64,000 nucleotides of DNA, taken from positions 1 through 64,000 of the forward strand of contig NZ_JABCPZ010000017.1 in the NCBI RefSeq assembly GCF_013283785.1, in the 5' to 3' direction. Shown here piece by piece: positions 24,137-26,609 of this stretch. The DNA is from Nonomuraea antri. Lineage in GTDB: Bacteria > Actinomycetota > Actinomycetes > Streptosporangiales > Streptosporangiaceae. The number at the start of each line of letters is the position of its first letter. Position 1 is the first letter of the stretch. The position numbers and the translations under genes are program-made. The notes beneath the pieces were generated by a model. It was not told the DNA's origin. It was given only the letters and a program-made list of their open reading frames with translations, and did not search any database.

Positions 24137-25324
24137 TCAGGGCTGGACGCGTCGTCCCAGGTGGGCCAGCAGCCGGGTGAACAGCGGGGCCGTCGGCAGG
24201 ACCGGGATCGGTTCGGCGAACCGGCCCGCGCGACGCTGGACGTCGCCGACGGCGTTCGCCGCGTACTCCCAGACCGCGCGCACGACGTCGTCGTCGGCGT
24301 GGTACGGCAGGTGGGCGCCGGTGGCGAGGTCCCAGCCGTGGACCAGCGACTCCTGCAGCGCGATCGAGGCCAGCGTGGCGCCGGGGACGGTGGCGCCCAT
24401 GAAGGCGTACCGGCGCTCCAGCACGCCGGGGGCGGCGAAGGCGGCCACCGACCGTGCGGCGATCGCGCGGAAGGCTGTGGCGGGGTCGGGGCCTAGATGG
24501 TCGGTGTCGGCCTGGCGCTGTTCGTCGAGTTCGGACGGATCCGGCTGCTCACCCTCGGCGAAGCGGGCGAGCAGGAGCAGCGCGCCGGCCAGGTGGTGTG
24601 CGGTCTGGCGTACGGTCCATTTCCCGCCCGCGCCGACCGTGTCCCAGTGGTGCGCGCCGACCTGCTCCAGCAACCGGACGACCTGGGCATGGCTACGTCC
24701 CAGCAGGTCGGGCACGCCCGGCAGACCCGGCTGGCCCGACAGGTCCTTCCGATCTGACTGGCCCGCCCGGCCCGGCTGGCCCGGCTGGCCCGACAGGTCC
24801 TCCCGGTCCGACAGGTCCTTCCGATCTGACTGGCCCGACAGACCCGACAGGCGCGACAGGTCCGGCTGACCCGACAGGTCCTCCCGGTCCGGCTGGTCCT
24901 CCCGGTCCGGCTGGCCCGCCCAGCCCGGCTGGTCCGACTGGCCCGCCCGGTCCGGCAGGTTCGGGCGGGCGGCGGGGGACATCGTGCGGCGGAGCTGCTC
25001 GGCGTCGTAGAGCAGTTCGCCTGAGACGATCTTCCCGTCGCGCACGCGCAGGAGTCCGGCGGCGGTCAGCGTGCCGGGCAGCGGGTCCATCTCCCAGTCG
25101 ATGATGGAGCAGACCAGGTCGCCGTCGATGAACTGATGACGTACCCGGAAGGCGCGCACGGCCGCGCCGGCCTGGCGGGCCATGGCGCGATAGCTCGCGC
25201 TGTCGGTGAAGCCGGCGACGGGGCCGGTGAAGGCGAAGTCGTCGGCCAGCGGGACCTGGCTCAGGTCACCGGCCAGATGCTGCCAGGCGTGGTAGTAGGG
25301 CTCGACGACGGTACGAGGATCCAT
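24137..25324 (-). CDS. SnoaL-like / repeat linker / DinB-like fusion protein
   Basis: The 395-aa protein has three parts. Residues 1-115 are a SnoaL/NTF2-like domain ([35 protein letters not shown]). Residues about 121-204 are a highly charged, Gly/Ser/Asp/Arg/Gln repeat linker encoded by a 9-bp minisatellite. Residues about 208-395 are a DinB/maleylpyruvate isomerase-like bundle ([48 protein letters not shown]) with the His residues that bind metal in that family (AHH near 253, HGWD near 323). It is 69 bp downstream of the sigma factor gene and probably co-transcribed. GGAGGCGG precedes the ATG. The mycothiol-dependent enzyme reaction is a family inference only. Confidence 0.75.
24711..24963. 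repeat. in-frame 9-bp minisatellite
   Basis: About 28 imperfect copies of a 9-bp unit of the type GGYCCNNCN (plus strand; for example GGTCCTCCC, GGTCCGGCT, GGCCCGACA). Longer repeats such as GGTCCTTCCGATCTGACTGG recur. The unit length is a multiple of three, so the array stays in frame inside the SnoaL/DinB fusion gene, where it encodes a linker with repeats such as GQSDRKDLS and DREDLSGQP. On the plus strand it encodes Gly-X-Y triplets. Confidence 0.9.
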
Positions 25325-25393
25325 GGGAGCCGCCTCCGGTGCGGGGTCGCGGGCGCGACCGTTCCCCTGACAGATCCGGCCCGCGACACCGAC

Positions 25394-26368
25394 TCATCGC
25401 ACGGCCGCCGAATTCCCTGCCGCCAGTGGTAACCCGAACCAGCCGAACAGCCCCGGATCGGGGAAACCGACGATCTCCGCCACCCCGTCCTGGGCCAGGG
25501 ACAGCACCATGATCCCGTAGCCGCGGCAGGCGCCGGCCTGGTCGGGTAGGTAGGCGGCCAGGGCGGGCTGGCCGTTCGCGGCGATCTCGACCAGGTCGAT
25601 GAGGTCCAGCCGCCCGTCGGCCGGCCGGGTGGCGAAGAACTCCGTCACCGCCGTCCGGCCGCTGATCTCGACCTGTTCCGGTGGCATCCGCAAGATCACG
25701 TCCTCGCGGAGGAGGCCGGCCAGCGCGTCCAGGTCGCGCCGGCGCCAGGAGTCCACGAACCGGCGCAGCAGCTGCCGCTCGTAGTCGATCAGCGGCCGCT
25801 GCGGCGCGGCGGCCCTGGCGCGCAGCGCGGCCCGGCCACGCTGCAGCGAGCTGTTGACGGCCGGGACGCTGAGGTCCAGCAGCGCCGCGACCTCGGCCGC
25901 GCTCCAGGACAGCACCTCGCGCAGGATGACCACGGCCCGCTGGGTCGGCGGCAGCAGCTGTAAAGCCGTGACGAAGGCCAGCGCCACCTCCTCGCGCCGC
26001 TCGACGAGCAGCGCCGGGTCGAGTTCGGCGAGCAGCGTGTCGGGATAGGGCTGCAGCTGATCGACCTCGGCGGCCACGACGGGCAGCCGCCCACGCCGTT
26101 CGACGGCCCGCAGGCACGCCATGGTCGCGATCCTGTGCAGCCAGTGGTGCAGCGGCGAGCGGCCCTCGTAACCACCCAGACCGCGCCAGGCGCGCAACAG
26201 CGTCTCCTGCAGCGCGTCCTCGGCCTGGTCGAGTGAGCCGAGCATGCGATAGCAGTGCAGGTGAAGCGCCCGCAGGTGCGGCGCGACCAGCGCGTCGAAG
26301 GCAGCGTGCTCACCGCGGCGCGCGGCGGCCAGCAGCCGGTCCTGCCCGGCGCCGGAGTCCTGAAGCAT
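25394..26368 (-). CDS. ECF sigma factor with C-terminal SnoaL-like domain
   Basis: The 324-aa protein has sigma-2 (residues 20-85; LHLHCYRMLGSLDQAEDALQETLLRAWRGL), sigma-4 (about 130-190; ALQLLPPTQRAVVILREVLSW...AAEVAALLDLS) and a C-terminal SnoaL/NTF2-like fold (200-320). This is the SigX5/ECF-with-SnoaL architecture of actinobacteria, in which the extra domain modulates activity without a separate anti-sigma factor. The start at 26368 follows GGGGTGAG; the upstream ATG at 26392 lies inside the -10 region (TAGGGT at 26388-26383). Upstream lies the tandem repeat array at 26403-26609. The next gene is the SnoaL/DinB fusion. Confidence 0.88.
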   Translation of the reverse strand: MLQDSGAGQDRLLAAARRGEHAAFDALVAPHLRALHLHCYRMLGSLDQAEDALQETLLRAWRGLGGYEGRSPLHHWLHRIATMACLRAVERRGRLPVVAAEVDQLQPYPDTLLAELDPALLVERREEVALAFVTALQLLPPTQRAVVILREVLSWSAAEVAALLDLSVPAVNSSLQRGRAALRARAAAPQRPLIDYERQLLRRFVDSWRRRDLDALAGLLREDVILRMPPEQVEISGRTAVTEFFATRPADGRLDLIDLVEIAANGQPALAAYLPDQAGACRGYGIMVLSLAQDGVAEIVGFPDPGLFGWFGLPLAAGNSAAVR

Positions 26369-26402
26369 GCTCACCCCAGCGACCCTAACCACCGACTACG
26401 AC

Positions 26403-26609
26403 AAGAACCGGCCGACCGACGACCGCCCACAACAAGAACCACCGAACCTGACGACCGCCTGCGACTAAACCTCCGGACCCGGCGATCCGCTGCGACAAGC
26501 ACCACCGAATCTGACGACCGCCTGCGACTAAGACCGCCGAACCTGAGGACCCGCTGCCGCCAAGACCGCCGAGCCGAACGACCGGCTGCGGCAAGAACCG
26601 CCGCTTACC
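26403..26609. repeat. degenerate ~32-bp tandem repeats between divergent genes
   Basis: Seven imperfect units begin at 26403, 26434, 26467, 26497, 26530, 26562 and 26593, with spacings of 30-33 bp. Each opens with AAG-ACC-CC-GA and closes with GACCGC-TGCGAC or a close variant. There are no unique spacers, so this is not a CRISPR array. It fills most of the 360-bp gap between the sigma factor gene and the DevR box and has no coding signal. Confidence 0.75.

Follow-up and report, generated by a model that had tools for sequence, protein, structure and literature searches.

The 64,000-nucleotide stretch of Nonomuraea antri DNA analyzed here (hereafter the window) contains a gene in which a run of 9-bp repeats separates two protein domains. 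The locus raises the question of what this array is: a working part of the protein, a coding sequence of the opposite strand, DNA brought in from elsewhere, a fault of the assembly, or simply a repeat that has grown where the protein could tolerate it.

The array and its host gene

Features of the locus are listed in Table 1. Both domains of the host protein are recognized by profile searches. TIGR03086 matches aa 211-391 with 101.7 bits, which passes the NCBIfam cut-off of 83, and PF11716 (MDMPI_N) matches aa 209-334 with 31.1 bits (cut-off 24.2); PF12867 (DinB_2), at 24.3 bits, falls slightly short of its cut-off of 24.8.

Table 1. Features in and around the 9-bp array (positions in the window).
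Feature	Position	Strand	Description	Basis
Host gene	24137..25324	minus	SnoaL_2 + TIGR03086/DinB-type fusion, 395 aa, ATG start	ORF, domain matches, orthologues
DinB-type domain	24152..24700	minus	aa 209-391	TIGR03086 + PF11716
Antisense open frame	24454..25104	plus	216 aa, Gly-Pro-X	judged not a gene
9-bp array	24719-24961	minus	27 in-frame units, about G(A/G)C C(A/G/T)G (C/T/G)CG; gene codons 122-202	
SnoaL_2 domain	25022..25306	minus	aa 7-101	PF12680, 33 bits (cut-off 27)
Likely ribosome-binding site	25333..25337	minus	GGAGG, 8 nt 5' of ATG	sequence reading
ECF sigma factor gene	25394..26392	minus	C-terminal SnoaL_2, TIGR02960/PRK08241 type; upstream of host gene	domain matches

A preliminary description of this DNA had placed about 28 units at 24711-24963. 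The array itself is present, but its edges and count need slight correction, to 27 units that are all exactly 9 bp long. As a repeat within an open reading frame whose unit is a multiple of three (27 x 9 bp), it is an in-frame coding minisatellite. TRF called periods of 9 (24756-24945), 54 (24716-24851) and 27 (24904-24960) over it. Lag-9 identity is 0.650 across the 243-bp array, compared with a mean of 0.351 (sd 0.044) for 243-bp stretches taken at one per 3 bases over the whole window; 27 stretches reach within 0.05 of the array's value, and all 27 overlap it. Shuffled versions of the array (2000 each) gave maxima of 0.487 when codons and 0.419 when bases were permuted. A GGNCC-like core recurs within the array at a spacing of 9 or 18 bp in 22 of 22 cases.

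The openness of the frame through the array is in itself no proof of coding, since the two other gene-strand frames are likewise free of stops. The host reading frame is nevertheless real, because both halves of the protein align to orthologues on either side of the array, with 83-86% identity in the SnoaL half and 65-75% in the DinB half. The repeat linker that had been read from the minus strand is thus in the sequence as claimed, and its description as an in-frame hydrophilic spacer separating SnoaL-like and DinB-like domains is borne out by the profile matches and the spacer composition: the 81 residues are hydrophilic, with 32% charged residues and a net charge of -6. The spacer is probably disordered. 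AlphaFold predicts coil from residue 121 to 203 with a linker pLDDT of about 29, a value that says little about disorder because confidence is low over the entire model (mean 41.7, six sequences), which is usable for secondary structure at most.

Upstream of the gene, 20 nt 5' of its ATG, lies an inverted repeat, GGTCGCG-CGCGACC (25345-25360), in a block (GGATCTGTC...GCGACCC) that is conserved across six aligned loci. Its arms co-vary in the locus L055 (GGCCGCG/CGCGGCC). It is possibly an operator or a leader hairpin.

The collagen-like reading of the plus strand

The preliminary description had also pointed to a resemblance of the plus strand to collagen. The Gly-Pro-X triplets are certainly there, in an open frame of 216 aa that gives a weak match to the Pfam collagen profile PF01391 (20.5 bits, E 0.00042). 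However, this score is under the gathering cut-off of 27.2, the frame runs antisense to the two conserved domains of the host gene, and it vanishes with the array in the orthologues. The triplets are a by-product of the repeat core: GGNCC is almost identical to its reverse complement and therefore yields Gly-Pro-X in one frame per strand. With this core repeated at 9-bp intervals, Gly-Pro-X can also be read in another gene-strand frame of the array. The resemblance therefore carries no meaning of its own. A collagen gene on the plus strand was rejected, and this strand almost certainly does not code for a collagen-like protein.

Orthologous sites without the array

A search with the SnoaL half of the protein (E <= 1e-10) found it in 5 of 54 Nonomuraea genomes, the own genome being counted. 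Complete orthologues from four Nonomuraea genomes (G064, G068, G007 and G019) and from Planotetraspora kaengkrachanensis were compared. They are 312-314 aa long, and in all five the hinge between the domains consists of 8-10 residues and has no array. The excess of the host protein over the 314-aa forms (395-314 = 81 aa) corresponds exactly to 27 x 9 bp. Two further copies were excluded from the five. That of P. phitsanulokensis (L056) seems to be broken, with matches in two frames and its first 64 residues unmatched, and is also free of the array; that of G046 consists of the SnoaL half alone and has a divergent sigma gene next to it. L058 and L055 are both the G019 gene, which was counted once.

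Protein phylogeny places the window sequence with G064 (support 0.955), a grouping that is not firm, as G064 and G068 form the closest pair at synonymous sites of the DinB half (pS 0.196). With the array absent from all five relatives, whichever grouping holds, a lineage-specific gain at the domain hinge is by far the simplest reading. The suggestion that the number of units can change agrees with the comparison across related genomes, where 27 units in the window stand against 0 in the five complete orthologues of other species; no intermediates were seen among these.

An error in the draft assembly, which comprises 580 contigs, might mimic such a gain. The minus strand of the array contains twice the decamer AGATCGGAAG, with which a common Illumina adapter begins. 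As the decamer continues in phase with the repeat, its presence is probably due to chance; adapter trimming at these sites could have disturbed read coverage over the array. Against an artefact, the units have diverged and their longest exact repeat (30 bp) is below the usual read length, the contig is 81.7 kb long with the array 24 kb in, and both flanks fit the orthologues in one frame. The chance that the array is an artefact is thus very slim indeed.

Similar arrays elsewhere in Nonomuraea

Similar 9-bp stretches occur at other loci in at least 17 of the 53 other Nonomuraea genomes, with up to 14 candidates scored per genome. Sixteen loci, 12 of them from this search, were inspected by eye, and two of the sixteen (L082, L087) lacked a clear array by the measure applied. 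The sites include an MFS transporter, a position behind a kinase domain, a Condensation-domain protein and the end of a DUF4158 domain, as well as low-complexity proteins and non-coding stretches. The MFS transporter of G033 (L064:1817-3382) carries in-frame 9-bp repeats encoding Arg-Ser-Gly, with a lag-9 identity of 0.95, and about eight in-frame Leu-Ala-Arg units of 9 bp are found at the DUF4158 domain end in G072 (L078:1221-2045).

Two cases are informative about how such arrays arise and change. In G074, the hinge that precedes the ATP-binding domain of an ABC transporter contains a 9-bp array, PGQSGQSGQSGRTG. This array is absent from the hinge at all 8 related loci of other species. Their hinges are at least 12 residues long, with three at 12-14 residues and the others longer but different; the hinge in G010 bears a 12-bp repeat of its own. 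The G074 array and the empty related sites imply that such arrays arise repeatedly in the genus. In the second case, an array with a motif similar to that of the window lies 3' of the stop codon of another gene and measures 268 bp in G065 (L077:1418-1696) and 113 bp in G025 (L085:1488-1611). The two share anchors, and their flanks are 92-95% identical. Given this difference in length between close species, such arrays must change length quickly. Core spacing behind the stop includes seven 8-bp intervals among 25 in G065, and is 9 or 18 bp in 9 of 9 cases in G025.

The presence of such arrays at other loci, together with further Gly-Pro-X stretches in the own genome (C547, C499), could point to import of the array, perhaps out of a collagen-like gene or a different genomic array. 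The sequence comparisons argue against this. The next best DNA matches in the own genome reach 42.8 bits each, one with 84% identity over 38 bp and one with 74% over 81 bp. A three-unit pattern of the array has 59 sites in the own genome, of which 21 lie in the array itself, and the 38 elsewhere are fewer than the 54 of its reversed control. Hence no donor in the own genome was found among the DNA matches, the sites of the three-unit pattern or the Gly-Pro-X stretches. In the 53 other genomes, two array motifs likewise show no excess: fourfold GGRCCNGNC has 184 sites compared with 204 for its reversed control, and fourfold GRCCWGYCG has 27 compared with 45. Import is therefore very unlikely.

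Counting the own genome, 127 of 200 genomes in the order contain raw matches to fourfold GGRCCNGNC. A repeat motif specific to the genus is unsupported, both motifs being rarer than their reversed controls. To judge from these comparisons, the arrays look like recurrent, ordinary array growth and not like a repeat family of their own.

The adjoining sigma factor gene

The ECF sigma factor gene beside the orthologue is intact in three of six stretches compared (G068, G007 and P. kaengkrachanensis) and damaged in one (G064); it was not found within the compared stretch of G019 or P. phitsanulokensis. The G064 copy (L059:3341-3821) matches over about 140 first codons, its middle is missing, and its end lies in another frame, so that it appears to be damaged.

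Immediately upstream of the sigma gene there is a second array (26376-26603), made up of some seven 32-bp copies. On visual inspection, these units are similar to the conserved segment that precedes the sigma gene start (TGTCG...TAGG...GTGAGC), which is itself the last copy, and the best three copies match this promoter-proximal segment at 22-24 of 32 bases. The 32-bp array is absent from the four orthologous upstream stretches compared.

According to the available part of one report, SigG1 of Streptomyces tsukubaensis, which has the same domains as the sigma factor here, is bound by the adjoining RsfG (PMC7730460). By analogy, one might guess that the SnoaL-DinB protein acts on its sigma neighbour in an RsfG-like manner. 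A more elaborate proposal is that two independent lineage-specific arrays of variable length, one of promoter copies and one forming the spacer, jointly make up an evolvable regulatory switch. If true, minisatellites could set the sigma factor level and also how its possibly sigma-binding partner grips or senses, but we regard this as highly improbable.

Growth of the array and significance of the spacer

Differences between units number 331, 534 and 160 at codon positions 1, 2 and 3, respectively. Since they fall mostly at the first two positions, there is no sign of amino acid conservation. The corresponding pN/pS of 1.95 is hard to interpret, because third positions are about 90% G+C. Uniform core spacing is also weak evidence for selection on the frame, given that the largely non-coding G025 array is just as regular.

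The 30-bp exact repeat recurs 8 units away, and an in-phase repeat of at least 30 bp arises in 32 of 1000 random unit orders; block duplication within the array is thereby modestly supported. A possible seed of the array is the sequence CAG CCG GGC in the hinge of G068, which is an exact array 9-mer (1 match compared with about 0.05 expected over 36 hinge triplets). The match is limited to one of the five hinges, and near-matches in the hinges are uninformative because about 1 is expected by chance at one mismatch (rate 0.029 x 36). Strand folding of the array showed no hairpin excess for DNA (z -0.15) or RNA (z -0.49) that would account for slippage, and hairpin-driven expansion was rejected.

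Could the length of the array set the distance or coupling between the domains, as a selected, tunable spacer or an adaptive rheostat? The array lies exactly at the domain junction, its frame is unbroken through 27 units, and the protein adjoins a SnoaL-type ECF sigma factor, as does the sigma-binding RsfG. In addition, the DinB half has changed faster than in two relatives: with L057 as outgroup, 29 amino acid changes in the window sequence compare with 4 in G064, and 36 with 8 in G068. The differences from G007 (24 and 18) and G019 (22 and 15) are not significant, and in the SnoaL half there is no rate difference between the window and its relatives with the same outgroup. Gain of the array may possibly have relaxed or altered the constraint on the DinB half. 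However, a hinge of just 8-10 residues is present in the five complete orthologues, the repeat residues are not conserved among units, and comparable arrays are found at unrelated sites, including another hinge. A functional tunable spacer is thus unlikely.

We consider it quite probable, on the strength of these sequence comparisons, that the array reflects tolerated in-frame growth of a minisatellite at a permissive hinge, and that the resulting spacer has no specific function. On this account, a 9-bp coding minisatellite would have been born at the short SnoaL/DinB hinge in the lineage of this species and would have reached 27 units as tandem and block duplications accumulated through replication slippage or unequal recombination. 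With a unit that is a multiple of three and a permissive hinge, each step would have remained in frame downstream and been tolerated. The outcome would be an 81-residue spacer that adds distance and flexibility but has no required sequence. The mechanism of duplication, the disorder of the spacer and its neutrality are what we infer from this pattern.

Comparison with known systems

Bacterial collagen-like proteins (PF01391) share Gly-Pro-X triplets with the plus-strand reading of the array, which differs in being on the wrong strand, scoring below the cut-off, corresponding to no conserved gene and arising from the repeat core. Caution is advised with collagen-like or other repeat peptides that emerge when GC-rich arrays are read on the opposite strand. 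The likeness to SigG1-RsfG is one of neighbourhood alone: the host gene also adjoins an ECF sigma gene whose product carries a SnoaL_2 extension, but RsfG is reported to have a mass of about 17 kDa and to lack Pfam domains (PMC7730460).

Among the matches listed, literature searches covering repeats in in-frame linkers, SnoaL-DinB combinations and repeats in Nonomuraea showed no paper on this array. Overall, it looks like a young in-frame minisatellite that lengthens a domain hinge, a case of ordinary tolerated growth and not a new system. Many prokaryotic satellites are situated inside genes, have a unit that is a multiple of three and encode amino acid repeats, as stated in the accessible part of a survey (PMC6749651), and the array in the window resembles them in all of these respects. 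Compared with what that part of the survey presents, it differs in that orthologous sites without the array place its gain, and in that this gain coincides exactly with the junction of two domains. It thus provides a clear case of a GC-rich bacterium gaining a long flexible linker, through expansion of a short in-frame repeat where two domains already met, and the second hinge in the genus indicates that this has happened more than once.
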